Shown: piece by piece, positions 1 to 37,452 of the stretch
Layout: every line of letters starts with the position of its first letter
Position numbering within the stretch: the stretch's first letter is position 1
NCBI GenBank assembly: GCA_945860565.1
Contig: CAMAQS010000012.1
Span: 1 to 40,767, forward strand
Length of the DNA stretch: 40,767 nucleotides
Reading direction: 5' to 3'
Source of the DNA: Chitinophaga pinensis
GTDB lineage: Bacteria; Bacteroidota; Bacteroidia; NS11-12g; UBA955
The notes under the pieces: generated by a model
Database searches by the model: none
The model's input: only the letters and a program-made list of their open reading frames with translations
What the model was told of the DNA's origin: nothing
Program-made: the position numbers and the translations under genes

Positions 1-543
1 AATGACGGGAATATACCATTTCAATTCTGCTTTTTGATATTCCTGTGAATACTGTGACTCACCATTCACAGGCTTTTTAGGCTTAACAACGGCATAATTA
101 ATGCCCTTAGAATCATATTTTATCACCGAATCGTTTTTGAACCAAAACTGTAAATAAGTATTGGTGGAATAAGAATATGTAATGCCCGAGGAGGTGCTTT
201 TATTTGTAGTGTTCACCGATTGCGCGATGGGAGGCAGCACCAAATTCCACGGATTCTGACTTATTTCTCCCCTTTCATTTTTTATGGTCTCAGATTGCGA
301 TTTGGTCGATTCACCCAAGTGATAGTACCAAACTTCGATGTCTTTATAGGAAACATTTCGAGTGGCAACGCCATATTCAGTGATTACTTGAAGTTTATTT
401 TTAAACTTTTGGCGCATCACAGAATCATGGGTAATAAGTGTATCCATTTGCACCGGTGCAGTTACAAAATCAGATGTACTACCGCAGCTAGCCATGATTA
501 TCACCGATAACAATCCCCCTAAACCAAAAATGTTAACCTTCAT
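1..543 (-). CDS. Putative lipoprotein, partial (3' end lies beyond window start)
   Basis: Not in ORF track; manual minus-strand translation from ATG at 543 is open to base 1: MKVNIFGLGGLLSVIIMASCGSTSDFVTAPVQMDTLITHDSVMRQ...WYIPVI; lipobox IMASC. Confidence 0.85.
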   Translation of the reverse strand, partial: MKVNIFGLGGLLSVIIMASCGSTSDFVTAPVQMDTLITHDSVMRQKFKNKLQVITEYGVATRNVSYKDIEVWYYHLGESTKSQSETIKNERGEISQNPWNLVLPPIAQSVNTTNKSTSSGITYSYSTNTYLQFWFKNDSVIKYDSKGINYAVVKPKKPVNGESQYSQEYQKAELKWYIPVI

Positions 544-777
544 TTATACCAATGATTCGGATTTAATGAAAAATTCTAATTTCTGAAAGGAGTGGTGAAT
601 GAATAAATCTTTAACATTAAAAAAGTAGTTTTACATCTGATAATTCATTTGTTGGCATGCCATAAATCAAGTGCCATTTCAGAAATTTCGACGGAAATAA
701 TGACCGTTTTATCTCATTTCTTTGGGGGATGAATATTCCGGCAAAATCTCCATTAATATTGTATCCAATTTTAAAAA

Positions 778-1611
778 ATGAAACGCCAATTCTCTCTCCT
801 TATTTCTTTATTTACCTATTTCAATCTCTTTGCACAAAAACCACTTTCTATTGAAAACAAATCGTTTAACGGAATAGAATATGTCCAATACAAAGGCGAA
901 TATCAAAATTGTTATTTTGCCGAAGCCCGCAAAAAAATAGCATTAGATACACCAGTTACAGAAATGTATTGGTCGGATACTGTCTGTTCTGATTTGTATT
1001 TTGAAGGCATCCGTTTAAAGGATACCACTAAAAAATTGGATCATTTTCTCAAAGATTTTGCCTTTTCTTTGGGCAATGGCGAACAAATGAGTTATAATGA
1101 TTTATGTAGGATGATCGATACTTCTGCCAAAGAAAGCATCCTTAACTTATCCATGAGCACAGAACCATTGTATCAATTTGCAGATATATTAAGCATTCAA
1201 AAATCGATGAGTGAGTATGCTGGTGGAGCCCATCCAAACCATGCCATATTTGAGGTGAATTGGGATGTTGCTACCGACAAATGTATATTTTTAAAGGATT
1301 TATTCTTGCCGGGATTTGAACGTAAAGTCCAGCCCTATTTCAAACAACAATTAATTCAAAAGTACAATGAAGATTTCAGCGATTATTTTGGAGACACCAT
1401 CGCCATATCCAGTCACTTTTCATTCAATGATTCCACCATTAGCTTCGATTATAGTCCCTACGAACTTCTACCCTATGCTTACGGTATGGTAAATTTAGAA
1501 ATCCCCTATTGTGAGGTTAAAGCCTTCGCCACACCCTACTTCAAAAAGCAAATCAAAAAACACCAAAAATTCCTGAAACGCAATCGTCGTTCTGCTTACA
1601 AAAAGTGTTAA
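778..1611 (+). CDS. DUF3298/RsiV-like domain protein with signal peptide
   Basis: YAGGAHPNHAIFEVNWDVATDKCIFLKDLF...SPYELLPYAYGMVNLEIPYCEVK typical of DUF3298/DUF4163 proteins. Confidence 0.75.
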   Translation: MKRQFSLLISLFTYFNLFAQKPLSIENKSFNGIEYVQYKGEYQNCYFAEARKKIALDTPVTEMYWSDTVCSDLYFEGIRLKDTTKKLDHFLKDFAFSLGNGEQMSYNDLCRMIDTSAKESILNLSMSTEPLYQFADILSIQKSMSEYAGGAHPNHAIFEVNWDVATDKCIFLKDLFLPGFERKVQPYFKQQLIQKYNEDFSDYFGDTIAISSHFSFNDSTISFDYSPYELLPYAYGMVNLEIPYCEVKAFATPYFKKQIKKHQKFLKRNRRSAYKKC

Positions 1612-2525
1612 TTTTCGTAAAACTTCACTACTTCTTTTGCAATTTTCGCAATGATTAACTCACTGTTTTCCAGTGTTTCGTATGAGTCAGATACAAAAAC
1701 TGAAATGGCCACATGATCTCCATTGGAAAGCGTAACTATCCCAACATCATTCACCGCTGAAGTTTTTCCTTCTTTATTGGTATCGCCGGTTCCGGTTTTA
1801 TGGGCTACTGCTAAATTTTTGGAAATTTTCCCACGAATTCTATTGGCTCCTGTTGCAGTGGCCTCCATGGTTTTGAACAAAAAAGCTGAGGATTCTTTTG
1901 TTACAATCATGTTGTGATACAAACCATCCAACAATTCTATGCACGCATAAGGCGTACAATTGTTTTTATATTGAACCTCCCACCCTTTGGATTTCTCAAT
2001 TTCATTGGCTTTTACGCTCATGTTGGCAATATTTTTATCTTCTAAAAACTGCTCTAATGAAGCGGTTCCACCTATTAAATCAAACAGTAAATCGCAGGCA
2101 TTGTTGTCAGAAACAGTGATGGCATATTCTATTAATTTGGCCACTGATATTTCAAAATCTCCGTTGGGATGTTCGTCGCGCATGGGACTCCAAGTATTGG
2201 TGCGTAAATCAGAGGGCATGATGTACATTAATTGCTCTAATTGTAGTTCTTTTTTATCCACCAAATTCAATACAGCCAAGGCCAAAGGGAATTTGTAAAC
2301 ACTTTGCATGGGATAAATTCGCTCATTTAATACGGTCAAAGTATCTCGTTTTTCCATGTGCATAATGGCCACACCTACTTTGGCTTTGTAAGGGGTAATT
2401 ATTTTTTGGAGGGATGTTTTTAGCTTGCTGTTATTAGGTTGTTGTGCAGCGGCGAAATGCGCCGAAAATCCCCCGAAAAAGAGAATAATACATGCTCCTA
2501 TTTTGTTGATTTTGTATTGTTTCAT
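1608..2525 (-). CDS. Class A beta-lactamase (subclass A2-like)
   Basis: SVYK (SxxK), SDN and KTG motifs in correct order, N-terminal signal peptide. Confidence 0.9.
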   Translation of the reverse strand: MKQYKINKIGACIILFFGGFSAHFAAAQQPNNSKLKTSLQKIITPYKAKVGVAIMHMEKRDTLTVLNERIYPMQSVYKFPLALAVLNLVDKKELQLEQLMYIMPSDLRTNTWSPMRDEHPNGDFEISVAKLIEYAITVSDNNACDLLFDLIGGTASLEQFLEDKNIANMSVKANEIEKSKGWEVQYKNNCTPYACIELLDGLYHNMIVTKESSAFLFKTMEATATGANRIRGKISKNLAVAHKTGTGDTNKEGKTSAVNDVGIVTLSNGDHVAISVFVSDSYETLENSELIIAKIAKEVVKFYEN

Positions 2526-2535
2526 TGCTTAAATT

Positions 2536-3348
2536 CTATTGCTTAAACGGAATGGCACGCAAGGCATAAACCATTGGGATTTGCGGTTTTATGGTGGAAA
2601 TCACAAATTTATTAGGACCTATTTCTTGCATATTCTGAAAACAATTATACGGGGAATAATTGAATTCTTCAAAACTATCTACCATTAAGCCATTGGATTT
2701 TAACGCATTGAATACTTCTGAGAGGCTGTGATTCCAAGTAATGTCGTTCACTTTGATATCGCTATCGGCATTCGCGTAAGTGCCACTTTGTTCTTCAATA
2801 ATAGGGGTAGATTTAAAATAATCGTAGGTAATTTCGGTAAATTCATTGTTATACATCCACAAAACTGGATGAAATTCCGCCATAATAAATTGTCCATTGG
2901 GTTTCAAAAAATGCCTAACCACTTTTGCCCATTTGTCTAAATCTGGCAACCATCCAATGGTACCGTAACTTGTAAACACAATGTCGAAGGTATCCTGATT
3001 TACAGTTGGAGCACTATATACATCGGCACAAACAAATTGAGCGTTCAAATTCATTTTATCAGCTAAATTTTTTGCATATTCTATGGCTTTGGGAGAAAAA
3101 TCCAATCCAACCACTTCTGCTCCCAGCTGTTGCAGCGCCAGCGAATCCTGTCCAAAATGGCATTGTAAATGCAGAATTTTCTTGCCTTTTACATCCCCCA
3201 ATAACGAAAGTTCTATGTCGTTTAGCACTTGTTTTCCATTTATAAATCCTTGAACATCGTAGAAATCAGAATCTATGTGCACACCCACTCTTTTATCCCA
3301 CGATTGCTGGTTAATTTTCAAATAATCGGAGTTAGCATCTGTTGTCAT
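2536..3348 (-). CDS. Class I SAM-dependent methyltransferase
   Basis: KKILHLQCHFGQDSLALQQLGAEVVGLDFSPKAIEYAK SAM-binding motif. Confidence 0.85.
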   Translation of the reverse strand: MTTDANSDYLKINQQSWDKRVGVHIDSDFYDVQGFINGKQVLNDIELSLLGDVKGKKILHLQCHFGQDSLALQQLGAEVVGLDFSPKAIEYAKNLADKMNLNAQFVCADVYSAPTVNQDTFDIVFTSYGTIGWLPDLDKWAKVVRHFLKPNGQFIMAEFHPVLWMYNNEFTEITYDYFKSTPIIEEQSGTYANADSDIKVNDITWNHSLSEVFNALKSNGLMVDSFEEFNYSPYNCFQNMQEIGPNKFVISTIKPQIPMVYALRAIPFKQ

Positions 3349-3425
3349 AACTAAAATGTCAAAGATAAGTTAGGAATTGAAATCATCTATTGGTAAAAAC
3401 TCTAATTTGCCTTAAAAACGGCACC

Positions 3426-4373: not shown

Positions 4374-4442
4374 TGAATGCTAGTAGCAAAAATAAGGATT
4401 TAAAAATTATTCTATCTAGCAAGCTTCTAACTCAAAAGAAAA

Positions 4443-5171: not shown

Positions 5172-5180
5172 AGATTTGGT

Positions 5181-5828: not shown

Positions 5829-6950
5829 ATGAAATTACCCTGTTTTGGAATTGCCCTTTGTGTGCTCGGATTGTTGTTTTTAAGTGTTAAATCCGTTTAT
5901 GGCCAAAGAAGCAACACAGATTCGTCTTTGCAACAGATTTTGAACAATGCAACAGATGGTAAATACATTCACGGTACAACCGTATTTATCCAAGGAAAAA
6001 ATGGCAAATGGCAAGGAGCCACAGGCAATTTCAAAACCGAAACCCCGTATTTTATTGCCAGCACAACAAAACTCTATACCACCGCAGTAATTCTGCATTT
6101 GGAATCCCAAAAAAAACTAAAACTGAGTGATTCCCTGAAACAGTATTTTTCGCAAAAAGAATTGCAAGGATTGCATTTTTTGAAACACACAGAATGGGCG
6201 CCTCACATTACAATAGGTCAACTGCTGTCGAATACATCCGGTTTGCCTGATTATTTTGAAGACAAAGACGATAAGGGACAAATTTTGATGAATAACCTAT
6301 TTATAGGCAAAGACCAATCGTGGAATTTTCAGGATGTGTTACAACTCACAAAACGCATGAAGCCTAAATTTACCCCAGGTCAAAAGGGGAAAGCCCATTA
6401 TTCCGATTCCAATTTCCAATTATTGGGTGAACTGATTGAGCGTATTACCGGTAAATCCATTCAACAGGTGTACCAAGAAATCATTTTTACCCCATTGAAT
6501 CTAAAGAACACCTATTTGTATTCCGATAGCAGCGATAGACGTCCTGTGCCCATGTATTATAAGGAAAACACATTGAACATTCCCTTGGCCATGTGCAGTG
6601 TCAAAGCCGATGGAGGCATAGTTTCTACTGCAGAGGAATCCTTTGTTTTTCTTCAAGCTTTTTTTGGGGGATATTTTTTCGACAAGGTAAAAATTCCAAC
6701 ACTTTACGACTGGAAACCGGTGATGTTTCCGCTGGAATATGGAATGGGAATTATGCGCTTCAAATTACCCAAAATGCTCACTCTGGGCAAAGAAATGCCC
6801 GAACTTATTGGACATTCTGGCATATCTGGTGCGTTTGCCTATTATGTACCTTCGAAGGATCTGTTTATCACTGGAACGGTGAATCAAATAAACAATCCCG
6901 GTACATCCTACAAAACGATTCTGAAGTTGATTGATGTTTATTCCCGTTAA
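5829..6950 (+). CDS. Serine hydrolase, class C beta-lactamase-like
   Basis: ASTTKLYTTAVILHL (SxxK), YSDSNFQLLGELIE, HSGISGAF. Confidence 0.85.
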   Translation: MKLPCFGIALCVLGLLFLSVKSVYGQRSNTDSSLQQILNNATDGKYIHGTTVFIQGKNGKWQGATGNFKTETPYFIASTTKLYTTAVILHLESQKKLKLSDSLKQYFSQKELQGLHFLKHTEWAPHITIGQLLSNTSGLPDYFEDKDDKGQILMNNLFIGKDQSWNFQDVLQLTKRMKPKFTPGQKGKAHYSDSNFQLLGELIERITGKSIQQVYQEIIFTPLNLKNTYLYSDSSDRRPVPMYYKENTLNIPLAMCSVKADGGIVSTAEESFVFLQAFFGGYFFDKVKIPTLYDWKPVMFPLEYGMGIMRFKLPKMLTLGKEMPELIGHSGISGAFAYYVPSKDLFITGTVNQINNPGTSYKTILKLIDVYSR

Positions 6951-9181: not shown

Positions 9182-9886
9182 ATGAAAAAAATACTATTCT
9201 TTAATGCCTTAATTTTATTTGGATTAATGGCTTGTGACCCAAACAAAACATCCCCCGAAAAAACCATTACAACTATGAACGCTAGCATTGTCAATTACAT
9301 CGATTCACAGGTAATTCCTGGATTTGATACCTTATCCCCCGAAAGAAAAGAAATTCTGAATGAATTGTCTGATTGGATTTCCGAAAATACAGACTCAAAC
9401 CGTGCCCTTACATTTATTTGCACCCACAATAGCAGAAGAAGTCATTTTGGTCAAATTTGGGCTCAAGTAGCAGCGAATTATTATGGCATTTCAAATATAA
9501 AAACCTATTCAGGAGGCACTGAGGCCACCGCATTTAATCCAAGAGCCATTGCAGCCATGGAAAGAGTAGGATTTTCAGTAGCCAAAGACAGCGGCGAAAA
9601 CCCCATGGTTCATTTAAAATACGATACAGAATCGGAAGCAATCAATTGCTTTTCAAAAAAATACAGCGATAAAAGTAATCCACAAAAACAATTTGCAGCA
9701 ATCATGACGTGTTCTCATGCGGACGAAGCTTGTCCAGTCGTTTTTGGTGCTTCTAAACGATTTGCAATAATGTATTTAGACCCTAAAGTGGCAGACAATA
9801 CTGACCAAGAAACCGCAAAATACGACGAACGCTGCAAGCAAATTGCCACTGAAATGTTCTATGTGATGTCTCGTGTGAAAAAATAA
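9182..9886 (+). CDS. ArsC-like/low-molecular-weight phosphatase family protein with N-terminal lipobox
   Basis: CX5R loop CTHNSRRS; N-terminus [22 protein letters not shown]; within ars operon. Confidence 0.82.
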
Positions 9887-11003: not shown

Positions 11004-11156
11004 TTATTCTGGATCTATTTCCACAATTTTGTTGTCTCGCATTACTACAAGTTTGCTTTTTTTCGCTTTTTTATATTTCAACAGATCTTCATAGGTTTTT
11101 TCTAGGCCTTTAAGTATTTTAAGTTTGAGTTCATTGAAACTTTCTTGATTCGTCAT
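11004..11156 (-). CDS. 50-aa small ORF overlapping the 3' end of the zeta-like gene; candidate partner
   Basis: Manual translation: MTNQESFNELKLKILKGLEKTYEDLLKYKKAKKSKLVVMRDNKIVEIDPE*; overlaps upstream CDS by 26 nt in another frame. Confidence 0.6.
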   Translation of the reverse strand: MTNQESFNELKLKILKGLEKTYEDLLKYKKAKKSKLVVMRDNKIVEIDPE

Positions 11157-11727
11157 ATCGTTTTTTTAAATTGTTGTATATTTCTTGATTGAAAATAATT
11201 ATTTCATTATCAAAGTACTTTTCGGCAAAAAGATAGTGTTTACCCTCTGAATTATCAAACAAGAAAACCGTGTCTACAATTGAAAGGTAAATATCAAAAA
11301 AGTTTCTAATACCTCTTAAATATCTTCTTTCAATAACTTCAATGGGTATATTATGACCGCCCTCTTTTACTCGCGTCCGAACTCGTTCTTTGGCCAAATC
11401 AACATTTGAAAGCCAAAAGAATAACAAGCATATTTTATAACCATTTGCTTTCGCTTTGACTATTTTGCTTTTATAACTTTTAGTGGATAACGTAGTTTCT
11501 ATAGCGAATGTTTCATTCTTTGAAAGTAATTCATCAATTCTATAGAGCATTATTCGCCCGGCTTCAATTGCAACTTTCTCTGGTTGAAAAGGTGAAATTC
11601 CCTTGGCAATTTCATCGGCATTTATAAATTCTTTACAATTCAATATTTCTGGTAAAATCGTAAACGATGCAGTAGTTTTTCCAACACCATTACAACCTGC
11701 AACTATATAAAGATTTTTACCACTCAT
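11131..11727 (-). CDS. Zeta-toxin-like P-loop kinase
   Basis: YIVAGCNGVGKTTASFTILPEIL, INADEIAKGISPFQPE, AIETTLSTKSYKSKI typical of zeta toxin family. Confidence 0.85.
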   Translation of the reverse strand: MSGKNLYIVAGCNGVGKTTASFTILPEILNCKEFINADEIAKGISPFQPEKVAIEAGRIMLYRIDELLSKNETFAIETTLSTKSYKSKIVKAKANGYKICLLFFWLSNVDLAKERVRTRVKEGGHNIPIEVIERRYLRGIRNFFDIYLSIVDTVFLFDNSEGKHYLFAEKYFDNEIIIFNQEIYNNLKKRYDESRKFQ

Positions 11728-12310
11728 TCAAACGAATTTACGCATAGTTTTTGTAGTTTTTCTAAAACATTGGTTTGGGACACACAATAATAGCCATAAA
11801 GTTTATAAAATTCTTTTGTGAAATATTGTATCGGTAATTACCGAAATCTTTGCTTCTCGATGTGTTTTCCAACTTGGTAATCCTGATTGTAAAAAGTGTC
11901 AATACAAGCTATTCTTATATACAATGTCTTGATATTTCACAATCTTAAGAAAACCATTAATTAATTTGGAATAAAATTAATTCCATTTCCTTTTGCAGTG
12001 AATTAAACTCTAATTAAGATTTGAGTTATTTAACCAAAATCTATTTAATAGAAAATTTATTACGGCCACAAATTAATTTGAAATAGGGCGTTTCAATTAC
12101 TTTATTTGAATCATCAGGTAGTTTAGAAATACTACTCCTTAAATAATATTAATTTCTTTAGGCGTTGAGGTCTTTTGATGTATTCTTGATGTAAATTCTG
12201 AGTTTAAATCTAAAGTCACCTAGAAAAGTGTTTTGAATTTGGTTCAATTCCAGGTTATTCAAAGGTGGATGATTATCTTTGACTTTAAAGGTAAATATTT
12301 AAAGTTCTAA

Positions 12311-12709
12311 ATGAAAACCATTGAAGTAGTTTGTGCGGTAATTCAGCAAGGCGATGCTTTTTTATGTGTACAACGCGGAAAACATAAATTTGATTATTTG
12401 AGCTATAAATACGAGTTTCCAGGCGGTAAAATCGAGAATGGAGAAACACCACAAAGTGCATTAATCCGTGAGATTAAAGAGGAACTCGATTTAACGATTG
12501 AGATTCAAAAAGAGCTGTGTACTGTGCAACATGTTTATCCCGATTTTGAAATTCAAATGACCGCTTTTTTGTGCACTTCAGACAATAGTACTTTGAAATT
12601 AAATGAACACATAAACAGTGTTTGGTCAAATTCAGAAAGTTTAAACGATTTAGATTGGGCTGCCGCCGATGTGCCCATTGTGGAGCACCTAAAAGTGATG
12701 AGGGATTAA
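12311..12709 (+). CDS. NUDIX hydrolase, MutT/8-oxo-dGTP diphosphatase-like
   Basis: NUDIX box GGKIENGETPQSALIREIKEELDL. Confidence 0.9.
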   Translation: MKTIEVVCAVIQQGDAFLCVQRGKHKFDYLSYKYEFPGGKIENGETPQSALIREIKEELDLTIEIQKELCTVQHVYPDFEIQMTAFLCTSDNSTLKLNEHINSVWSNSESLNDLDWAAADVPIVEHLKVMRD

Positions 12710-12711
12710 AG

Positions 12712-15621
12712 ATGAGAGAATTGTTGCACGACGCCTTAATAGCGGGATATATAGATAAAACACATTCCGCCAATGGAGATTATCTGCCAGAATTGTTATT
12801 AAACGATAAAACCCGACATAAAAGTGTACTACAATCCATTCATTTCGCGCTGCAAAACTGTGATGAGTTTTGGTTGAATGTTGCATTCGTTACTACGAGT
12901 GGCTTAGCTACCATCAAACAACAGCTCATAGAACTCAATAGAAGAAAAATCCGGGGTAAAATCTTAGTGTCTCAATACCTAAATTTTACTCAACCAGAGG
13001 CTTTAAAGCAACTGCTTTTATTTGATAATATGGAAGTTAGAATTAGCACCCATGACAGCCATCACATCAAAAGTTATATTTTCAAAAAAGACCGGATTGT
13101 TGACTTAATCATAGGGAGTAGTAACCTCACAGCCAGTGCGTTGACAATAAATAAAGAGTGGAATTTAAAAGTTTGTGGTGCATTTGAGAGTTATATAATT
13201 CACAAAACTTTAAGTGAATTTGATTTGCTATTTGCGCAAGCAAAACCTGTGAATCAATCCTTTATTGATGCTTACATTTTGGAATACTCTAAGTCCAAAG
13301 TTCCTGCAGAATTTCACGAAAATCCGGGTCCACAGCTTGTTACGGCAGAGAAAATCCTACCTAATTCTATGCAATCCGAGGCGCTAAAAAACATTGAATA
13401 TTTGCGCGCATCGGGGGCTAAAAGAGCGCTATTAATTTCGGCTACTGGAACAGGAAAGACTTATTTATCTGCCTTTGATGTAGTTAAATGCAAACCCAAA
13501 AAACTTTTATTTGTGGTTCATCGCAGAACCATCGCCAAAGCTTCTTTAGAATCGTTTTCAAGGGTCATTTCAGACTTCAAAATTAAAATGGGTATGTTTT
13601 CTGGGGATGAAATAGGCTACAATTACGATTATTATTTTGCAACCATTCAAACCATTAGTCGGGACGAACATTTATCAAAATTCACTTCCGACTATTTTGA
13701 TTACATTATTGTAGACGAAACCCACCGATCTGGTGGAAATACATATCAAAAACTCATTCAACATTTTAAACCGAAATTCCTTTTAGGAATGACCGCTACT
13801 CCGGAAAGAACCGATGGTTTTGATATTTTCAACTTATTTGATTACAACATTGCGTATGAAATTCGATTGCATCGGGCTTTAAAAGAAAATTTGTTATCCG
13901 ATTTTCATTATTATGGCGTGAGCGATTTAACCGTAAATGGAGAAGTTGTAGAAGAAACTTCTTCTTTTAATTATTTGTCAAGTGATGAAAGAATTAGACA
14001 CATTCTGACCACCATTAATTTGTATGGAACAGATTCAGGGGTTACTAAAGGACTTGTTTTTTGCCCTGCGAATACAGCAAATCAATCTAATGAAATTCAC
14101 TTTTTATGTGAAAAATTCAACGAATTTGGCTTTAAATCGGTTGTTTTAACGGCAACTAATTCTGAAAAAGAAAGACTTTCTGCCATTGAAAAATTAGAAT
14201 CTACAGGGCCAGAAAAGTTAGATTATATATTCACCGTAGATTTATTCAATGAAGGAATTGACATTCCCGCAGTGAATCAAATTGTGCTATTAAGACCAAC
14301 TCAATCCTCTATAGTATTTGTACAACAACTTGGGCGTGGTTTGCGGAAACATAAAGGTAAGGAATATTTAACAGTGATTGATTTTATAGGCAATTATTCC
14401 AATAATTTTTTAATTCCAATTGCCCTATATGGAAATGATTCTTACAACAAAGAATCCATCCGTAAACAACTCATTGGCGGGGAACAATTATTACCCGGTA
14501 CTTCTACTATTAACTTCGAAAAACAAGTAAAAGAGAACATTTTAAAATCATTGAATGGTTCTAATTTTAATGCACGGAAAAAATCAATTGAAGATTACCA
14601 ATATTTAAAACAAAAATTGGGAAGAATTCCCATGATGTGCGATTTTCTAACTCATGGCAGCCGTGATCCATACAATTATGTATTGTCAGACAAGTCTTAC
14701 TACAATTTTGTGCAGAAGCAAGAACGCACAGGCTTAGACTTATTAAATGAAACTCACAGACGCTGCTTAGAACTGTTTGCTTCAGAAGTAAACAATGGAA
14801 AACGAATCATAGAAACCATCACTTTAAAACTATTATTGCAAGAAAACGAGGTTTCAGCAGATCAAATAAAGACAGAAATCCATGAAAAATATGGAATTCA
14901 GTTAAAAAATCGGGATGTTGAATCCATTACCAATCATTTGAACTTTAAGTTTTCGCACAAAAATATATTGCAAAGCATCGGACTATCCGAACTCGTTGTT
15001 TTCGAAAATGGCAATTTCCAATTAAGTCCGGATTTTCAATCCATTTTACAAACACCGGTATTCTTGTCTTTTCTTACTGACAATGTGAATTGTGCTTTGA
15101 TTCAATATCAACAATCCTTATCAGAATATATATATCAAGATGGCTTTTTATTGAATGAACGATATTCTAGAAAAGATGTATTTCGGATTTTGAATTGGTC
15201 CGAAAATCCAAACCCTCAAAATGTTGGTGGATACATGCGCAGTCCCGACAAGTCAAACTGCCCTATTTTCGTCACTTACCATAAGAGTGAATCCATTTCT
15301 GAAACCACCAATTATCACGATCATTTTATTTCTAGGGATATGTTGGGTTGGATGTCAAAATCGAAGCGGTCATTAACTAGTCCCGATGTAATAGACATTC
15401 AAAAAAGCAGTGAAAACAACATGCGTTTGCCTTTATTCGTAAAACGGGATGATACTGAAGGTACTGAATTTTATTATTTGGGTGATTTAACCGTTCTTCA
15501 AAACGAAACAGTGCAAACCACAATTGGTTCTGACAATGCCAGCGTGGTATCCTTTAAATTCAAAATCAACCCGCCATTAGATTTGGCCATGTACAGTTAT
15601 ATTACTGGTAAAGAAGGTTAA
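12712..15621 (+). CDS. PLD-like + SF2 (DEAD/DEAH) helicase + DUF3427 protein
   Basis: HHIKSYIF..IIGSSNLTASAL (PLD), ISATGTGKTYLSAF (Walker A), IIVDETHRSGG, GMTATPERTDG, QQLGRGLRKHKGK; C-terminal LGWMSKSKRSL..LPLFVKRDDTEGTEFYYLGD; ATG two bases after the NUDIX stop. Confidence 0.88.
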   Translation: MRELLHDALIAGYIDKTHSANGDYLPELLLNDKTRHKSVLQSIHFALQNCDEFWLNVAFVTTSGLATIKQQLIELNRRKIRGKILVSQYLNFTQPEALKQLLLFDNMEVRISTHDSHHIKSYIFKKDRIVDLIIGSSNLTASALTINKEWNLKVCGAFESYIIHKTLSEFDLLFAQAKPVNQSFIDAYILEYSKSKVPAEFHENPGPQLVTAEKILPNSMQSEALKNIEYLRASGAKRALLISATGTGKTYLSAFDVVKCKPKKLLFVVHRRTIAKASLESFSRVISDFKIKMGMFSGDEIGYNYDYYFATIQTISRDEHLSKFTSDYFDYIIVDETHRSGGNTYQKLIQHFKPKFLLGMTATPERTDGFDIFNLFDYNIAYEIRLHRALKENLLSDFHYYGVSDLTVNGEVVEETSSFNYLSSDERIRHILTTINLYGTDSGVTKGLVFCPANTANQSNEIHFLCEKFNEFGFKSVVLTATNSEKERLSAIEKLESTGPEKLDYIFTVDLFNEGIDIPAVNQIVLLRPTQSSIVFVQQLGRGLRKHKGKEYLTVIDFIGNYSNNFLIPIALYGNDSYNKESIRKQLIGGEQLLPGTSTINFEKQVKENILKSLNGSNFNARKKSIEDYQYLKQKLGRIPMMCDFLTHGSRDPYNYVLSDKSYYNFVQKQERTGLDLLNETHRRCLELFASEVNNGKRIIETITLKLLLQENEVSADQIKTEIHEKYGIQLKNRDVESITNHLNFKFSHKNILQSIGLSELVVFENGNFQLSPDFQSILQTPVFLSFLTDNVNCALIQYQQSLSEYIYQDGFLLNERYSRKDVFRILNWSENPNPQNVGGYMRSPDKSNCPIFVTYHKSESISETTNYHDHFISRDMLGWMSKSKRSLTSPDVIDIQKSSENNMRLPLFVKRDDTEGTEFYYLGDLTVLQNETVQTTIGSDNASVVSFKFKINPPLDLAMYSYITGKEG

Positions 15622-15667
15622 ATTCAAATTAAAATTAACAAACAGTCTTGATAATTTTATTTACAAC

Positions 15668-16339
15668 CTAAATTACACCAATCTGTAAATTTAAATGTAT
15701 AAACATTTCACTACGATCGGAATTAAAAAGCATCTTCGTTTCCATGTCATTTTCTAAATCTAATAGTTGGGTGTTGTTAAATAAAAATTCTTCGAAAATA
15801 TTGTGCGTATTTATTTGATAATTCAAAAGTTTATTATCCTCGATCTTGAGCATGGGTAAAGTAGTTTCATTATATTTTCCTGTCCATACATTTAAAGTAT
15901 TCATTCCAAGGGCGAGTTCTAAAAGAAATCTTTGTATTTTACTTTGATAAAAGAAATGTGAAAATTCCAGATTGTAATTTAATGGATTTAACCGTTTCAA
16001 TTCATTTGTTAATTCAAGAGTCGTTTTAAAATCAGACTTATAAAAAAGCAAAACCAAATTCGCCAACAATTCAGGCATTTTACTATCTATTAAGACAAGA
16101 TTGTTTTTGAATAGTTCATTTTCAACTTTTACAAAATCAATTTGTCCACCCGATTCCATAAAATCATTCAGTATTTTTCTTTTATAATTCGTAGAATAAT
16201 TTGAATAGTTTTCATATAATCCAAATTCGCTCAAATTACGATGCTTCAAAACATAAATAAATCGCACAGACTCATTGATATTAAACAAAGTTGTAGTGCC
16301 TACCAATAATTTGTTCTGATTAATATCTTGTTGCAGCAT
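15668..16339 (-). pseudogene. HpaII-family restriction endonuclease, apparently 5'-truncated
   Basis: From memory resembles C-terminal part of HpaII family: FKNNLVLIDSKMPELLANLVLLFYK, LNPLNYN, FLLELALGMNTLNVWTGKYNETT, FEEFLFNNTQL, LNLQIGVI; expected N-terminal part absent, no methyltransferase adjacent. Confidence 0.55.
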
Positions 16340-16384
16340 AATATTGAAAATTTTGGAGATCCTGAGATTAAATAATTCTCCTGC

Positions 16385-16470
16385 AATTTAATCCTTTTCA
16401 ACCCAATATCTCTGGCGAAAATCAACACAATTTGTAAACAACCCCAATTTTTTTTGCAAAAACTGCAAAT
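16385..16470 (+). repeat. Diverged direct repeat, copy 1
   Basis: AATTTAATCCTTTTCAACCCAATATCTCTGGCGAAAA (16385-16421) matches copy 2 at 32/37; next 49 nt align gaplessly at 32/49. Confidence 0.7.
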
Positions 16471-16818
16471 ATCGCGAAACGCAGTTTCAAAGAGAATTTG
16501 AAATTGGAATGAAATATGGGTAAGTTTGTGATTGGTGTACTTCGTAACCAACTTTAATGACAATAGACAAAAGTGGAATTAAAAACCTTGAATACGTAAC
16601 AGTGAACCCCGGATTCTGAAATAGGTGGAAATTGATTTACCTCAGGCTAGTTGAAAAGTTCGCAGGAGCATCTAATACAATGAAAAAAGGGTAAGACAGA
16701 TCTAAACCAATTTCAAAATGACTACAGAAAAAGTTGAAATGGTGGTGAATGTTTTCTTCGTAAAAAGCAAGACATCAATGGCAAAAAAAAATACCGCGAT
16801 ACATAACGCATTTTAACA

Positions 16819-17814
16819 ATGGAAGAAAATACCAATTTTATTATTTATCATAACCCAAACGGAGAAGTAAAGGTAGATGTTTTTGTAGAAGGTGAAACCG
16901 TATGGCTAACTCAAAAGAGTATGGGAGAACTTTTTGGCGTAGTAAAATCAACCATTAGTGAGCATCTTTCCAATATTTTTGATACCAATGAGTTGCAAAA
17001 AGAGTCAACTGTTCGGAATTTCCGAACAGTTCAACAAGAAGGAAAACGATTGGTAAATCGAGATATTGAATATTATAACCTTGATGCCATTATTTCTGTG
17101 GGTTACAGAGTAAATTCTAGCAAAGCAACTCAGTTTAGAATTTGGGCTACCCAAACTTTGAAGGAGTATATTATTAAGGGATTTGTGCTGGATGATAACC
17201 GTCTGAAGCAAGGTCAAACACTTTTTGGCAAAGATTATTTCAAAGAGTTACTTCGTAGGGTCCGTTCCATTAGGGCAAGTGAACGCAGAATTTACCAACA
17301 AGTAACTGATATTTTTGCAGAATGTAGTATTGACTACGATAAGAATTCAGACATCACAAAGAATTTTTATGCCATGGTGCAAAATAAATTTCATTTTGCA
17401 ATTACCGGGAAAACGGCTGCCGAAATTATTCACCTATCAGCAAATAAACATAAAGACAATATGGGGCTTACCACATGGAAAAATGCACCAAACGGACGAA
17501 TATTAAAATCAGATGTGATTGTCGCTAAAAATTATTTGCAAGAAAAAGAAATTAGTCAATTGGAAAGAACTGTAACAGGCTATTTTGATTACATAGAAGG
17601 TTTGATAGAGCGAGAAAATACGTTTACAATGGAACAATTGGCAGACAGTGTCAATAAGTTTCTTACGTTTAACGAATACAAAATATTGCATGGCAAAGGC
17701 GGACTTTCAAAGATTCAGGCTGCTAAAAAAGCTATAGAAGAATATGATGAGTTTAATAGAACTCAAAAACTCATTTCTGATTTTGATAAGGAACTTAATA
17801 AGGGAGAAATGTAA
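16819..17814 (+). CDS. RhuM family protein
   Basis: VWLTQKSMGELFGVVKSTISEHLSNIF, STVRNFRTVQQEGKR, YYNLDAIISVGYRVNSSKATQFRIWATQTLKEYIIKGFVLDDNRLKQG. Confidence 0.93.
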   Translation: MEENTNFIIYHNPNGEVKVDVFVEGETVWLTQKSMGELFGVVKSTISEHLSNIFDTNELQKESTVRNFRTVQQEGKRLVNRDIEYYNLDAIISVGYRVNSSKATQFRIWATQTLKEYIIKGFVLDDNRLKQGQTLFGKDYFKELLRRVRSIRASERRIYQQVTDIFAECSIDYDKNSDITKNFYAMVQNKFHFAITGKTAAEIIHLSANKHKDNMGLTTWKNAPNGRILKSDVIVAKNYLQEKEISQLERTVTGYFDYIEGLIERENTFTMEQLADSVNKFLTFNEYKILHGKGGLSKIQAAKKAIEEYDEFNRTQKLISDFDKELNKGEM

Positions 17815-18056
17815 AAAAATATAGATTAGAGTTCAAGCTTTTGCTTATGAAATTGGCTGTGAAAAACTATTCCAATAATTGATTGTAGTATATTGGAAAT
17901 TTTTTGTAAGTAAATAATTACTGAATTACATAATCCCGAGGATATTAACGATAGGACTCGAGACGCCGAAATATTGGAATTTCAAGCAGTATTGAAAGCC
18001 ATTAGGCAGTAAAAGGTTTTATTCTCTTCGGTGTTGAATGTTATCAATTCCTTTAA

Positions 18057-18142
18057 AATTTAACCCATTTCAACCCAATATCACATGCGAAAAACGCGGC
18101 AAGTCTTAAAAAATGACACTATTTTTTGGAATAATTGCAAAT
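18057..18142 (+). repeat. Diverged direct repeat, copy 2
   Basis: AATTTAACCCATTTCAACCCAATATCACATGCGAAAA (18057-18093); upstream of cytochrome c lipoprotein gene. Confidence 0.7.
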
Positions 18143-18181
18143 CAATTTTTTCAATTTGGAAACATTGCGGAACTTTGTCCC

Positions 18182-21327: not shown

Positions 21328-22179
21328 TTACAAACCCATTCTTTCAGGAGCGCAGTAAACATTAAATCTATTCTCTTTTAAAAAACCGACCAAGGTGATG
21401 TCGTATTCTTCGGCAAGATCAATGGCCAAACTACTGGGTGCACCTATTGCACAAATCATGCGGATTCCGGCCATGCTTGCCTTTTGAACCAATTCAAAAC
21501 TGGCTCGTCCACTCAAAACCAATACATAGTCAAAACAGGGAATCAATCCCTCATTCAACGCAAAACCGATGAGTTTGTCAACCGCATTGTGACGGCCAAC
21601 ATCTTCTTTTATGTACTTGCACTCTCCAGACAAATCAAACAAAGCAGCGGCATGAATCCCTCCAGAATATTCAAAATTCAGTTGGGCATTGCGCAATTTT
21701 GATGGAAAGGTCATGATGGTTTCGGGGGATATTTTCCATTTTTTTTGGGGGATGATTATCGGACAAGCCAATTTAACCGCATCGATGGATGCTTTTCCGC
21801 ATACTCCGCAACTGGAGGTGGTATAAAAATTGCGTTCCAATTGTTTCAAATTCACATTAACCGTTTCCTTCAGCACAACAGTCACTCCTTGATGTTCCAT
21901 GTTTGATTCAGATAGATTCGCTTCTGAGGCAAGTACTTTTTCAACGTCTTGATTGCCTTGAATAATTCCTTCGGTATATAAAAAACCAATAGCCAATTCT
22001 TCGTCAGCCCCTGGTGTCCGCATGGTAATGGCTACAATCTGAACTGTTGAAACGCCATTAATGGTTTGCTCAATGGAAATTTCAAGCGGCTCTTCTACCG
22101 ACACCAAATCATTTACATGTGTTCTATTGGTTCCAGAAATCTTTAGAATTTCATAGGGAATTAAGGTGTTTTTTGTCAT
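21328..22179 (-). CDS. fdhD: Formate dehydrogenase accessory sulfurtransferase FdhD
   Basis: TTSSCGVCGKASIDAV, GGIHAAALFDLSGECKYIKEDVGRHNAVDKLIG, SGRASFELVQKASMAGI. Confidence 0.94.
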   Translation of the reverse strand: MTKNTLIPYEILKISGTNRTHVNDLVSVEEPLEISIEQTINGVSTVQIVAITMRTPGADEELAIGFLYTEGIIQGNQDVEKVLASEANLSESNMEHQGVTVVLKETVNVNLKQLERNFYTTSSCGVCGKASIDAVKLACPIIIPQKKWKISPETIMTFPSKLRNAQLNFEYSGGIHAAALFDLSGECKYIKEDVGRHNAVDKLIGFALNEGLIPCFDYVLVLSGRASFELVQKASMAGIRMICAIGAPSSLAIDLAEEYDITLVGFLKENRFNVYCAPERMGL

Positions 22180-23230
22180 TGGGGGTATCGAAGCTTTTAA
22201 AATGTTCGGGGTTTGTGATTAGAAGGGTTCGCGCTTTGTTTTCCTTGATTTTATCCATTAAAAATCCACTCAATGAGTGGTTGTTTTTAATCCCAATTTC
22301 AAAGTTCAAATCGCTGGCTGCATAGATTGCTATAAGTGGTTCTAGAAAATGGGTATCAGGATGTTTGTAACACACCGTTTTACCTGTGATTCGATACACT
22401 TGCAACAAATCAAATATTGCAGAAATCGGTAAATTTGGATAATCTATACCTATAAATAAAATACTCTTTTCAGTAAACTTTTTATGTGCGGTTAGTAATC
22501 CACCCATTGGTCCATTCTCTTGAAATTCAGGATCATCAGCAAAAACAGGATTTTCAGTTTCCAAGAAATCATTTGCATTTATTGCAACTAGGATATTGAG
22601 TGTTTGCAGTTGATTCACTACATATTGAAATTGAGGCAATCCATGGTAATTAATGAGTGCTTTGGGTTCACCCATGCGGCTACTTTTTCCTCCCGCTACT
22701 ACAACGGCTTGTATATTTGGAAAAGTTCTTATGAAAGGCCCTGTATTGACAATGGCATCAAACAATTTGTATTTTGTTAAAGCCCTATCTAATAGTGTGT
22801 TTCGTACAATTATCACCAACGAAGGTTTTGGTTCTTGGTGTTGATAATATTGGTTTAAAAATTGCGAAAATTGCGGTTCAAATCCGGCATTTGATTCTAT
22901 TTCAAGTTTTCCCAACTCGTCGATGATTAAATAATCGTGTATATTCTGCTTTAAGTCCTCTTTCAAATGGGCTAGTGCCCGAGAGAATGCAGATTTGTAA
23001 AATTCATATCTACCAATTTTAACGATTTCGGGGGATTGGTTTTCTGCAATTTCGGCAACCTCGAACGGGATATATTTTTGTGCAGCTGGAAAGTAAATTT
23101 GTCGCTTGTTATTAACTACCGGCGATAAGAATCCCCCCACAGACAAAGTATTATTGGAAGAAATCCAATCCATAATTAAGGTAGTTTTACCAATTCCAAT
23201 TGGCGCCGATATGATATAAATTTCGCTCAA
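22151..23230 (-). CDS. Fusion: P-loop NTPase (THEP1/NTPase_1-like) + MobA-like molybdenum cofactor guanylyltransferase
   Basis: N-term YIISAPIGIGKTTLIMDWI..YLIIDELGKLE; C-term VVVAGGKSSRMGEPKALINYHG..GPMGGLLTAHKKF..FIGIDYPNLP. Confidence 0.8.
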   Translation of the reverse strand: MSEIYIISAPIGIGKTTLIMDWISSNNTLSVGGFLSPVVNNKRQIYFPAAQKYIPFEVAEIAENQSPEIVKIGRYEFYKSAFSRALAHLKEDLKQNIHDYLIIDELGKLEIESNAGFEPQFSQFLNQYYQHQEPKPSLVIIVRNTLLDRALTKYKLFDAIVNTGPFIRTFPNIQAVVVAGGKSSRMGEPKALINYHGLPQFQYVVNQLQTLNILVAINANDFLETENPVFADDPEFQENGPMGGLLTAHKKFTEKSILFIGIDYPNLPISAIFDLLQVYRITGKTVCYKHPDTHFLEPLIAIYAASDLNFEIGIKNNHSLSGFLMDKIKENKARTLLITNPEHFKSFDTPNDKKHLNSL

Positions 23231-24222
23231 TTGATGCGATTTTCAACTTTGAATGCAATGAGGTATTCTATGCCAATGAAATATCTCAAGAATGGGGTGT
23301 GAAATTTCTTGGCAACCTGCACGCAGTGTAAATATTCCTGTTTTAGTTGGTTAAATTCGAGCATAATTTGGTTTACAGCTGCGGAATATTTGTTGTCTTT
23401 TACTTTTTTTGCAAGCAACCACTTAAACAGAGGATTCACCAACAAATAAATAAGCAATGTTGCCGTGATACTTCTTACAAAAACAGCCAATACATTAGAC
23501 TTATCGGAATCCGAAATGTATAAGATGGAGAGCATAAGAAACAATGTGACTGAATAAATTATCCAAAAAGGTTTTTTTCTTTTGGGGGATGTTGTCTTGG
23601 GTTTTAGTTCGTTTGTGGTGATTCCAGAAAGAGAATTTCTATTTTGGTTCAAGCGTGACATTCGTTTCGGTAATGTGCCCATTCGGGCACCGATAATCAT
23701 CCCCCAAAAAACATATAATGAAATATACGCGCCTAAAATCCAACTAGATACATTGGTTTCCAGTCCAAATTCTTTTGTTAAACCTGAAACAGTTTTATCG
23801 ATGGCTTTAAAAATGGATGTGCCATAAATTAATGTAAGGACAAGGATTTTTTGCATTGCCGATTCCAGCATAGCAATTATGGCAAAAACTATTGTTGCCA
23901 GATTATAGACGGGCAATACTTTAAATATGAACACTCCTATCAACCCTTGAAATACTACTGCGATATATGCGGGAGGTGGAGAATGAGGGCTTGCGGTTAC
24001 CTTAACCAAAATAACAATGAGTGTGGCTTTCAGTATTTCTTGAGTTGCATTTTTATTGTTATGGGCCATAATTGAAATTATAGCTACGGCAGATCCACCC
24101 ACAAGCAAACCAGTAAGTGGAATATGGAGCGCGTGTAAAACACCGCCCAATGTAGCTTCAACGAAGGCCCATAAGGCAGTAAGTTGAAACCAAATTGTAT
24201 TTTGTGAATTATTTGGATGCAT
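23227..24222 (-). CDS. Multi-pass membrane protein, unknown function, coupled to NTPase-MobA gene
   Basis: FVEATLGGVLHALHIPLTGLLVGGSAVAIISIM and further hydrophobic segments; ATGA-type 4-nt overlap with downstream gene. Confidence 0.7.
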   Translation of the reverse strand: MHPNNSQNTIWFQLTALWAFVEATLGGVLHALHIPLTGLLVGGSAVAIISIMAHNNKNATQEILKATLIVILVKVTASPHSPPPAYIAVVFQGLIGVFIFKVLPVYNLATIVFAIIAMLESAMQKILVLTLIYGTSIFKAIDKTVSGLTKEFGLETNVSSWILGAYISLYVFWGMIIGARMGTLPKRMSRLNQNRNSLSGITTNELKPKTTSPKRKKPFWIIYSVTLFLMLSILYISDSDKSNVLAVFVRSITATLLIYLLVNPLFKWLLAKKVKDNKYSAAVNQIMLEFNQLKQEYLHCVQVAKKFHTPFLRYFIGIEYLIAFKVENRIN

Positions 24223-32525: not shown

Positions 32526-32972
32526 ATGAAAAAAAACATTCAAATCTATTTCTGCCTTTTTTTATTAAGTTTTATCCTGTTCGCTTGTGGCGAGCAAGAA
32601 AATCCCCCAAAAGAAATTCAAATATTTGGAATTTGGTCAAAAGTAAAACAACAATTTATTCGGATAAATAACAATAAAATCATCGAAGACACTGTGACGT
32701 ATACATCAATCAACGACTCGAGTGATTTAGAATTATTTAATGATAGTACATACCGAATTAAATTCTACACGTTCAAAGATTCTGGAATTTTTCAGGGTAA
32801 ATATTATCGAAATAAACCATCAATAACATTTATCCCATTAGACAGTCCAACAAATACTGATGTGTACCAAGAACTGCGTCTTTCAGAAACTGAATTGTGG
32901 TTAAAGAAAACAGACCCAGACAATACCAATCCAAATAGAATTGAGATTATTCAATATTTCGTTAAAAAATAG
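32526..32972 (+). CDS. Lipocalin-like lipoprotein, tandem paralog 5 (divergent)
   Basis: MKKNIQIYFCLFLLSFILFACGEQE..DSGIFQGKYYRNKPSITFIPLDSPTNTDVYQELRLSETELWLKKTDPDNTNPNRIEIIQYFVKK. Confidence 0.75.
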   Translation: MKKNIQIYFCLFLLSFILFACGEQENPPKEIQIFGIWSKVKQQFIRINNNKIIEDTVTYTSINDSSDLELFNDSTYRIKFYTFKDSGIFQGKYYRNKPSITFIPLDSPTNTDVYQELRLSETELWLKKTDPDNTNPNRIEIIQYFVKK

Positions 32973-33016
32973 ATGGTTGATATACATCTTTGAGGGGTGT
33001 TAAATCTTAAAATAAA

Positions 33017-33841: not shown

Positions 33842-33934
33842 TTTAGTCAAAATAAACTTATTATTTGGACTCATTCTAAGTAATTATCACATTAGTTCAA
33901 CTATAGTAGCCAGAAATACTATCTTTGCATTGCC

Positions 33935-36004
33935 ATGATTCTTTCTAAAATGCGTTTTTGCATGCTTGCCTTATTTTTGCTTTGTTGTGTTTCAAATTCA
34001 TATGCACAAACAGACAATTTAGACACCCTAGATGAAGTTGTGGTTACTGGAACAATGAGGTCCGTTAAAAGGTCAGAAAGTCCAGTAAGTGTTGAGATTT
34101 ATACTTCTCATTTTTTTAAGAAAAATCCCACTCCAAATTTATTTGAGGCATTACAATTGGTTAACGGTGTGCGCCCCCAAGTAAATTGCAACGTCTGTAA
34201 TACGGGTGATATTCATATTAATGGAATGGAAGGACCATATACCATGGTATTAATCGATGGAATGCCCATTGTGAGTTCATTGGCCACGGTTTACGGATTA
34301 ATGGGGATTCCAAATGGAATGATAGATCGAATTGAAGTGGTAAAAGGTCCTGCGTCTTCATTATATGGAAGTGAGGCCATGGGTGGACTCATAAACATTG
34401 TGACGAAATCTGCAACATCTGGACCCAAAATTTCTTGTGATTTTTACAGTTCAACTTGGCCAGATGCCAACCTCGATTTAAATTTCACAACCAAAATTGG
34501 TGCAAAAAGTCATTTACTAACAGGAATAAACGGTTATTGGAATGACAGTAAACGAGATGATAATTTTGATGGATTTACGGATGTGGCAATTCAAAAACGC
34601 ATATCCTTATTTCAAAAGTTAAACATCCCCCGAAAACAAAACAAACAATTTGATATGGCCTGGAGAATTTTCAATGAAAATCGGTGGGGTGGAGAAATTG
34701 ATTGGAAAAAAGAATTTGAAGGGGGAGATTCAGTTTATGGAGAGAGTATACAGACTCAACGTCTTGAATTTGTTGGAAATTATCAACTGCCCATTAATTT
34801 ACCCTTGAAATTAGCAGTAAGTTTCAATCATCATAAACAAGCGAGCTTTTATGGAACTACACCGTACGATGCGGTACAAAGGATTGCTTTCGGACAATTG
34901 CTGTGGGAAAAAAAGATAAAGAAACACGCTTTACTCATTGGAAGTACCTTTAGGAATACTTTTTACGATGATAACACGGTGGCTACTCAGACAATAAAGA
35001 CCGACAGTTTTATTGAAAATGCACCATCGAACATAAACATGCCAGGCATATTTGTGCAGGAAGAGTATACTCTGTCTCCAAAATTTTTACTCTTAGGAGG
35101 ATTTAGAATCGACCATCATCCTGAACACAAATTCATTTACAGCCCAAGATTTGCGTTGAAATATACCACTACCAATAAAACGGTAATTCGTTTAAACGCA
35201 GGAACAGGCTTTCGGGTTGTTAATTTATTTACAGAAGACCATGCCGCACTTACTGGCGCCAGAACTGTTATTATTAAAAATGAACTAAGGCCAGAACAAT
35301 CTAACAATGTGAATTTAAATGTTAATCACACATTTGGACTTAAACGCGACGCCTTAATTAATGTGGAATCCTCTCTATTCTATTCGCATTTTCAAAACAG
35401 AATAATCCCCGATTACACTACCGACCCTACAGCAATAATTTACGATAACCTAAACGGGATATCTGTAAATAGAGGTCTAAACATTAGCGCCTTTTACCAA
35501 AATAAACGAGGATTTAGTTCAAGAATCGGCATTACCTATATGGATGTCTATTTTATTGAAAATGCGGTAAAAAGTCGTCCACTACTCACTGAAAAAATGA
35601 ATGGGACTTTCACTGTGGGATATCGATTCGCCCGTATTCGCACTACCATCGATTATTCAGGCAATGTGGTGAGTCCGATGCTACTTCCTACGCTCGGCGA
35701 ACTTGACCCCAGAAGCAAAACGTCCCCTTGGTGGTCTGTTCAACATGTTACATTTGTTCATACCTACAATAAAAAAGTAAGCTTCTATTTTGGAATCAAA
35801 AACTTATGGAACTGGACACCAAATAAAGGAAATCCATTCATTATTGCTAGGTCAAATGATCCGTTTGACAAACAGGTAAAATTTATTGACGGAGTTCCTC
35901 AAATCACCCCCGATAATCCATCTGCGCTAACATTTGACCCTACTTACGTATTTGCGCCAAATCAAAGTCGAAGGTTTCTTATTGGATTAAGATTTTCTAT
36001 TTAA
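33935..36004 (+). CDS. TonB-dependent receptor
   Basis: LDEVVVTGTMRSVKRSESPVSVEIYTSHFF, VLIDGMPIVSSL, RIEVVKGPASSLYGSEAMGGLINIVTK. Confidence 0.92.
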   Translation: MILSKMRFCMLALFLLCCVSNSYAQTDNLDTLDEVVVTGTMRSVKRSESPVSVEIYTSHFFKKNPTPNLFEALQLVNGVRPQVNCNVCNTGDIHINGMEGPYTMVLIDGMPIVSSLATVYGLMGIPNGMIDRIEVVKGPASSLYGSEAMGGLINIVTKSATSGPKISCDFYSSTWPDANLDLNFTTKIGAKSHLLTGINGYWNDSKRDDNFDGFTDVAIQKRISLFQKLNIPRKQNKQFDMAWRIFNENRWGGEIDWKKEFEGGDSVYGESIQTQRLEFVGNYQLPINLPLKLAVSFNHHKQASFYGTTPYDAVQRIAFGQLLWEKKIKKHALLIGSTFRNTFYDDNTVATQTIKTDSFIENAPSNINMPGIFVQEEYTLSPKFLLLGGFRIDHHPEHKFIYSPRFALKYTTTNKTVIRLNAGTGFRVVNLFTEDHAALTGARTVIIKNELRPEQSNNVNLNVNHTFGLKRDALINVESSLFYSHFQNRIIPDYTTDPTAIIYDNLNGISVNRGLNISAFYQNKRGFSSRIGITYMDVYFIENAVKSRPLLTEKMNGTFTVGYRFARIRTTIDYSGNVVSPMLLPTLGELDPRSKTSPWWSVQHVTFVHTYNKKVSFYFGIKNLWNWTPNKGNPFIIARSNDPFDKQVKFIDGVPQITPDNPSALTFDPTYVFAPNQSRRFLIGLRFSI

Positions 36005-37452
36005 AAATGGTAGTTTAGGACTACATTTATCTGTAATAAATTTACTTTATTTATTTGGTATTTTTGGGGGATATCTTGTTCTAAATTTGATTTATAAACG
36101 AGTAAAATCTGACTTTCTATGCCTTTCCAATATCCTTGAAAGTCGTGTCGCCAGTCCAGATTAAACTGCAAATAACTTGGCATTCCATATTTATTTGATG
36201 AAAAAGCGTATACCGATGGCAATTGATAATATCCGCCTATGGCCAAAAGAGTATTTCTAGTTGTTATTCGTTGTTTAATCTTAAAGTTTGTCGCTTGTAC
36301 ATTTGCGAGTCCTTCATTTCTTTCTCGGGGCATAAACGTAAAAAATGGATCTCTACCCCATTCTCGCGGCATAATATATTGCCCTTGATTTGAAATGTGG
36401 GTATAATTTAATTCAAGGGTTGTATTTTTGATTTTAGTTCCAATTCTACCACTTATTATAAATGCATGTTGACTATTATTCATGTATTTTTCGGTTGCTA
36501 TTTGGCTTCCGCCATTCCCATTTGAAAATTGTTTTGTCAATTGCAAAGAACCATAATATGTTAGTGAATTGGTGCGATTTAATGTATAATCTGTTTGAAT
36601 AAGTGAAATATTAAACAGATTTTGAACGTACATATTCCAACCGCGTACTGATACATTTTTATTGATGGTATGGAAGATACCCGTTAACAATAACCAATCA
36701 CTTTGGATTTTACCAACGAATTGATTCGGATTGCCTGTTTCATTTACACCAGCGCCATAAAGTCCAATTGATTCTCCAATTCCATACCATTTAGTGGTGC
36801 TTCTGGGCGAGATTCCCCAAATAATTCCTCCATTAATTTTGGTATTTTTCCATTTATTTAGATTAAGCCAAGCTCCTTCTACTCCAGTTCCCCGCATTCT
36901 TCCATCTTGTAAATTTATAAATGGTGTATTAATTAATTGACGACCAAAAACAATTTGTGACGACTTAAAATTATATTTTACATAAAATTCCTCCAATCTG
37001 TCCAAATCTTCGGTATTTTTAGGATCACTAACATCAAAAAGGCCTATTTCATAGCGATTCTTGGCGTTGGTTAAACTATCCCTCAGCGCTAAATCTGAAG
37101 ACCCTAAATTAAAAATAAAAAAACCACTTACGGCAAATTGAAACCCTTTAATTGGCAATGTTTCATACCGAATTCCACCACCACCTGCATTTGCGTAATA
37201 GTCAGACAAATTTTCATTGTTTTGGGTATTCATATAAAAGTACCTTAAATGACCATTGAATTTACCTTTGCGGAAAGCGTCTTGCAAGGAATTCGTGTCT
37301 TTTTTTGGGGGATGACTGCCTTTCCACATTTGAGGTGTTTCAGTTATTTCCTGGTGTTGGGCAAAGAGAGTAGAAAAAGGAAAAAGTATCCCTAGAAACA
37401 AAATAAAACCAAATAAACAGTAACGGCTTTTACCATACATATACAATTGCAA
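36001..37452 (-). CDS. OprD-like outer-membrane porin
   Basis: FNGHLRYFYMNTQNN..GGGIRYETLPIKGFQFAVSGFFIF..IVFGRQLINTPFINLQDGRMRGTGVEGAWL. Confidence 0.65.
   Translation of the reverse strand: MQLYMYGKSRYCLFGFILFLGILFPFSTLFAQHQEITETPQMWKGSHPPKKDTNSLQDAFRKGKFNGHLRYFYMNTQNNENLSDYYANAGGGGIRYETLPIKGFQFAVSGFFIFNLGSSDLALRDSLTNAKNRYEIGLFDVSDPKNTEDLDRLEEFYVKYNFKSSQIVFGRQLINTPFINLQDGRMRGTGVEGAWLNLNKWKNTKINGGIIWGISPRSTTKWYGIGESIGLYGAGVNETGNPNQFVGKIQSDWLLLTGIFHTINKNVSVRGWNMYVQNLFNISLIQTDYTLNRTNSLTYYGSLQLTKQFSNGNGGSQIATEKYMNNSQHAFIISGRIGTKIKNTTLELNYTHISNQGQYIMPREWGRDPFFTFMPRERNEGLANVQATNFKIKQRITTRNTLLAIGGYYQLPSVYAFSSNKYGMPSYLQFNLDWRHDFQGYWKGIESQILLVYKSNLEQDIPQKYQINKVNLLQINVVLNYHF

Follow-up and report, generated by a model that had tools for sequence, protein, structure and literature searches.

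The window analysed here, i.e., the whole stretch of 40,767 nucleotides, is one contig (C12, CAMAQS010000012.1) of the 156-contig, 2.39-Mb draft genome of a member of the Bacteroidota (G000). Among genes for beta-lactamase-like, FdhD-like, TonB-receptor-like and OprD-like proteins, it carries many copies of the ten-base word ATCCCCCRAA, the subject of this study. An earlier reading of the window (the original prediction) had counted 18 ATCCCCC cores, nine per strand, about 14 of them continuing as the full word. All 18 cores are present, nine on each strand, and exactly 14 extend to ATCCCCCRAA. The core placed at 34624 starts at 34625, and the GC content, given as ~37%, was measured as 35.5%. 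Runs of five or more C or G number 14 and 16, respectively. The sites are listed below (ORF, open reading frame).

513..519, plus strand: core only, ATCCCCCTAA
721..730, minus strand: full word ATCCCCCAAA
2468..2477, plus strand: full word ATCCCCCGAA, antisense within beta-lactamase-like ORF 1608-2525 (minus)
3193..3199, plus strand: core only, ATCCCCCAAT
6663..6672, minus strand: full word ATCCCCCAAA, antisense within beta-lactamase-family ORF 5829-6950 (plus)
9250..9259, plus strand: full word ATCCCCCGAA, sense within ORF 9182-9886 (plus)
9334..9343, plus strand: full word ATCCCCCGAA, sense within the same ORF 9182-9886 (plus)
21721..21730, minus strand: full word ATCCCCCGAA, sense within FdhD-like ORF 21328-22179 (minus)
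21744..21753, minus strand: full word ATCCCCCAAA, 23 bp from the word at 21721..21730 and on the same strand
23027..23036, minus strand: full word ATCCCCCGAA
23131..23137, plus strand: six-C core, ATCCCCCCAC
23581..23590, minus strand: full word ATCCCCCAAA
23699..23708, plus strand: full word ATCCCCCAAA
28786..28792, minus strand: core only, ATCCCCCACA
32602..32611, plus strand: full word ATCCCCCAAA
34625..34634, plus strand: full word ATCCCCCGAA, sense within TonB-receptor-like ORF 33935-36004 (plus)
36063..36072, minus strand: full word ATCCCCCAAA, sense within OprD-like ORF 36001-37452 (minus)
37304..37313, minus strand: full word ATCCCCCAAA, sense within the same OprD-like ORF 36001-37452 (minus)

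Dinucleotide-preserving shuffles of the window yielded a mean of 3.3 cores (maximum 8 in 100 shuffles) and 0.26 full words (maximum 2), compared to 18 and 14 observed. The chance estimate of the original prediction was slightly low for the cores (fewer than two); the excess is real. The genome-wide count that it had proposed as a check returned 376 copies of ATCCCCCRAA (185 forward and 191 reverse) against four of a reversed control pattern (three forward and one reverse). Under a fourth-order Markov model of 441 kb of the genome, the ATCCCCCRAA family was the most over-represented 8-, 9- and 10-mer. The consensus reads (a-rich)-C/a-ATCCCCC-R-AAA and continues as an A-rich tail to about position +20, with little information in the flanks outside -5 to +20. 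Single-base changes of the core mostly fall to background level, except for ATCCCTC (7x) and GTCCCCC (7x), which are the spellings of other species. Six Cs followed by AAA are enriched (12 vs 0.4 expected), and the C4 form ATCCCCRAA occurs at expectation (11 observed vs 12 expected).

Most copies lie within ORFs, as would suit a by-product of the encoded proteins or their codons (runs of Pro/Gly codons) or an artefact that C-runs owe to base composition or mutation. However, permuting synonymous codons within genes (387 ORFs) left a mean of 4.7 copies, with a maximum of 10, against 60 observed. The gene-borne copies cover all six frames, with 31 in sense and 29 in antisense orientation, and 14 of 74 copies are intergenic, although only 6.8% of the sampled genome is non-coding (p=4e-4). 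The C4 form stays at expectation, and sister genera of similar GC show background counts of the word. A protein or codon origin was ruled out by the codon shuffle, which also settles the Pro/Gly codon-usage check suggested at the outset, and a C-run artefact by the missing enrichment of C4; an origin of this kind is highly improbable. The pressure at the DNA level that had been proposed for the window is confirmed by the use of six frames and both strands and by the excess over the codon null. The intergenic excess could also point to remnants or targets of small mobile elements, or to regulatory operators. Yet the copies have nothing in common beyond about -5 to +20, they reside mainly within genes in both orientations, and their turnover and dialects, described below, proceed via point changes. 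A repeat element was ruled out, as the flanks are unlike beyond about 25 bp, and we see very little chance for this group of explanations.

To assess polarity, the orientation of sites was compared on contigs of up to 81 kb. Orientation agreed for a fraction of 0.47 of neighbouring sites and 0.505 of sites on one contig; the sites are thus not co-oriented, which speaks against replication-linked polarity. Segregation polarity of the type of FtsK-orienting polar sequences (KOPS) was ruled out by the concordance of 0.505, and the segregation signal listed by the original prediction is contradicted by it. This lack of polarity within contigs and the equal strand counts also argue against a Chi-like word, in which a nuclease of the AddAB/RecBCD type would be switched by TTYGGGGGAT and repair would select for many copies. 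The word shares its over-representation and its G-richness with several known Chi sites, its spacing of about one per 6 kb is on the order of the Chi density in E. coli, i.e., one per several kb, and it is conserved between close species. On the other hand, ten positions plus an A-tail of ~10 bp are long for Chi, Chi is not known for dialects that differ at two or three positions inside a single genus, and the word is in excess in intergenic sequence. A Chi-like function is therefore improbable.

High counts of ATCCCCCRAA were found in one genus of Bacteroidota only, namely in G000 (376), G002 (148) and G012 (109); other genera of the same family and order contain background counts. Across a phylum-wide sample of 394 genomes, the wider pattern RTCCCYCRAA reached 499 copies in G000 and at most about 130 in any other genome, the runners-up being larger genomes with higher control counts. 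Comparably strong words were absent from samples of five other genera (G023, G021, G039, G043, G017 and G019; 100 kb each). The genome of Flavobacteriales-Baikal-G2, a metagenome-assembled genome (MAG) from Lake Baikal that supplied the nearest named protein match (76% amino acid identity), is without the word.

Genus members that are poor in ATCCCCCRAA carry other spellings in the same frame, [A/G/T]TCCC[C/T]C[R]AA plus an A-rich 3' flank, which is common to all dialects: ATCCCCCRAA in G000, RTCCCCCGAA, RTCCCTCAAA and TTCCCCCRAA. RTCCCCCGAA is the preferred spelling of G002 and G012, and GTCCCCCRAA occurs 76 times in G012 and once each in G005 and G010. TTCCCCCRAA is found 193 times in G005, 106 times in G010 and 21 times in G000. 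RTCCCTCAAA is abundant in six species (G011, 452; G007, 386; G013, 367; G006, 316; G004, 276; G009, 257), has 95 copies in G000 and stays at background in 93 genomes outside the genus. No clear word was found in G001 and G003, and G008 has at most a weak TTCCCCCRAA form. Some other over-represented sequences, GGTCCCCGTC in the G007 sample (L157-L166) and ACCGATCACC and TTGGTCTTTGG in the G012 sample (L149-L156), do not look like dispersed words but like tandem repeats or protein-repeat DNA of local extent.

The gene for the DNA-uptake channel protein ComEC was found in 12 of the 14 genomes of the genus, including G000, and a single-gene tree was built from these 12 proteins. The six RTCCCTCAAA species (G004, G006, G007, G009, G011 and G013) form one clade (support 100/100), as do G002 and G012 (100/100), and G010 is paired with G008. 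With moderate support (87/89), G000 stands next to the RTCCCTCAAA clade, a position that its moderate RTCCCTCAAA count fits. Thus, the dialects track the ComEC phylogeny, in which some forks reach only 87/89. Genus restriction, dialects and site turnover had all been missed by the original prediction, which had no comparative data.

Turnover was followed at two distances. Between G007 and G011 (about 68 kb aligned, 88.8% identity), 12 of 13 G007 words are still a word in G011 and 10 are identical, whereas of the anagram words 37% are identical (p~1e-4). The sequence flanking these words is only about 83% identical, so the words are kept amid faster-changing surroundings. Between G000 and species of ~70% identity, none of roughly nine aligned words is shared. 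Sites are kept in the short term and replaced in the long term; the aligned sequences therefore indicate that word density, and not particular positions, is under selection or drive.

A density-selected word could also be bound by a nucleoid protein or chromosome organiser specific to the genus, or serve a defence or modification system in marking self DNA. Neutrality to strand and position and a species-specific spelling would suit a fast-evolving DNA-binding protein, and HIP1 of cyanobacteria is a precedent for a dispersed word without a settled function. However, the site is an asymmetric non-palindrome whose A-tail lies on one side only, the sampled contigs showed no macrodomain-like clustering, and a candidate protein was not found. 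Neither restriction nor modification increases word counts on its own, and methylation, one of the options first considered, predicts by itself neither over-representation nor dialects. We regard a binding or marking site as unlikely. HIP1 itself is an 8-bp palindrome; like it, the word is dispersed, over-represented and genic, but the asymmetric ACATCCCCCRAAA with its A-tail is not a palindrome and does not fit the HIP1-like option. An uptake sequence, also listed by the original prediction, now fits best.

ATCCCCCRAA with its A-rich 3' flank is probably the spelling, in this species, of a self-recognition word acting in the manner of the DNA uptake sequences (DUS) and uptake signal sequences (USS), dispersed words found in the naturally transformable families Neisseriaceae and Pasteurellaceae (PMC3630211; PMC7811141); it would be read by non-pilus machinery. 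This reading is based on an asymmetric ~10-mer, its strand neutrality, dialects around a fixed core, short-term upkeep and turnover. The likeness to DUS and USS is one that we infer, and formal membership in either class is not claimed. DUS of Neisseriaceae, which the receptor ComP recognises, are 10-12-mers; their dialects keep a conserved core and agree with the phylogeny (PMC3630211). Similarly, the present word is a dispersed ~10-mer on both strands, genic and intergenic, with several phylogeny-matched dialects; unlike DUS, it has an unrelated sequence and belongs to another phylum. The USS of Pasteurellaceae consists of a AAGTGCGGT-type core of 9-10 bp and AT-rich flanks, with AT-tracts in the Haemophilus USS, and is kept by biased uptake. 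A core of 9-10 bp with a one-sided A/T-rich flank and strand neutrality is common to both, and the A-rich 3' tail of all dialects recalls the Haemophilus AT-tracts, whereas the core is unrelated and the A-richness of the tail lies here on the C strand.

In the mechanism that we infer, i.e., receptor, uptake and drive, a surface DNA receptor would favour DNA bearing the word. Word-bearing homologous fragments would be imported, with single-stranded DNA entering via ComEC, and then recombined. The bias in uptake would spread copies through the population, making them dense and strand-neutral with shifting positions, and a change in receptor preference would let a new dialect spread. Such a receptor would have to differ from the pilins borne by secretin-based type IV pili.

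Several observations weigh against an uptake word. The secretin (PF00263), a part of the pilus-bearing DUS and USS systems, was not detected in any of the 14 genomes, although the same search was positive in six controls. A canonical type IV pilus pilin as receptor is thereby ruled out, and the known route of DUS reception, a minor pilin on the type IV pilus, is unavailable. ComEC is also present in the word-less species G001 and G008, and no ComEC match was obtained in G005, a MAG of 96% completeness, despite its 193 TTCCCCCRAA words. Copies per genome number about 370-450, compared to thousands in many DUS genomes. Close inverted pairs, which act as terminators in Neisseria and are a frequent though not universal trait, are few, with two within 150 bp among 74 sites. 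The conservation of sites is that of a single species pair and 13 sites. Lastly, DUF5689, the domain that marks one of the transformation proteins of Riemerella, gave no match in G000.

Riemerella anatipestifer, also of the Bacteroidota, is naturally transformable through ComEC, DprA, ComF and envelope proteins unlike known machinery (PMC8459023). Uptake without a secretin is compatible with this organism, as its ComEC-dependent transformation employs unfamiliar outer-envelope proteins; an uptake word, on the other hand, is not established there. Only A-rich k-mers have been put forward as possible uptake words, in R. anatipestifer, R. columbina and F. johnsoniae (PMC7965970). A weak DUF5689 match was obtained in a calx-beta-like secreted protein of ~1065 amino acids (L198-L201, L203 and L204), whose length is conserved across several genus members and relatives. 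The ComEC neighbourhood of G007 did not reveal a candidate for an envelope DNA receptor.

For Bacteroidota, a search of the open-access literature, with subscription papers and preprints outside its scope, returned no uptake sequence that has been established, and tags of this kind appear to be undescribed in the phylum. To our knowledge, only Neisseriaceae and Pasteurellaceae have established uptake sequences, and both families use type IV pili for DNA uptake. We tentatively suggest that the genus possesses its own family of uptake dialects, read by a non-pilus outer-membrane receptor and of an origin independent of type IV pili. If true, a dialect system would have arisen independently without a detectable secretin, pointing to a new sequence-specific DNA receptor, and the uncultured members of the genus would regularly exchange genes within species. 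With 14 related genomes and at least four natural dialects, the receptor could be sought by co-variation. If the word does not serve uptake, a fast-changing dispersed word with dialects is itself unexplained.

A second dispersed 10-mer, AAGCCCCCTR, was exposed by chance as a match to the reversed control of the census pattern. It occurs in a distant family (f27; genera g92 and g103; G504, G236, G182 and others; loci L247-L276) at 175-231 copies per genome of 2.4-2.8 Mb, compared to about 10-20 for the reversed control, equally on both strands and with unrelated flanks, in hosts of 48-60% GC. This suggests that dispersed words may be more widespread in Bacteroidota and, by analogy, hints that pilus-independent sequence-specific uptake may have arisen more than once in the phylum.

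An uptake sequence would be expected to be scarce in recently acquired DNA. Within the window, the longest gap without a word (9.3-21.7 kb, 12.4 kb; a single case) coincides with an island-like block at 11131-18520, which has no word inside and a GC content down to about 0.32. Its ORFs encode zeta-toxin-like, NUDIX and RhuM proteins, a DUF3427/ResIII helicase with a PLD domain and an HpaII-type restriction endonuclease. The profile match of the HpaII-like ORF (15668-16563, minus strand) covers only positions 146-358 of 359. Together with a second ORF of the minus strand (16300-16563) that overlaps the start of the HpaII-like ORF, this may reflect a frameshift splitting the gene.

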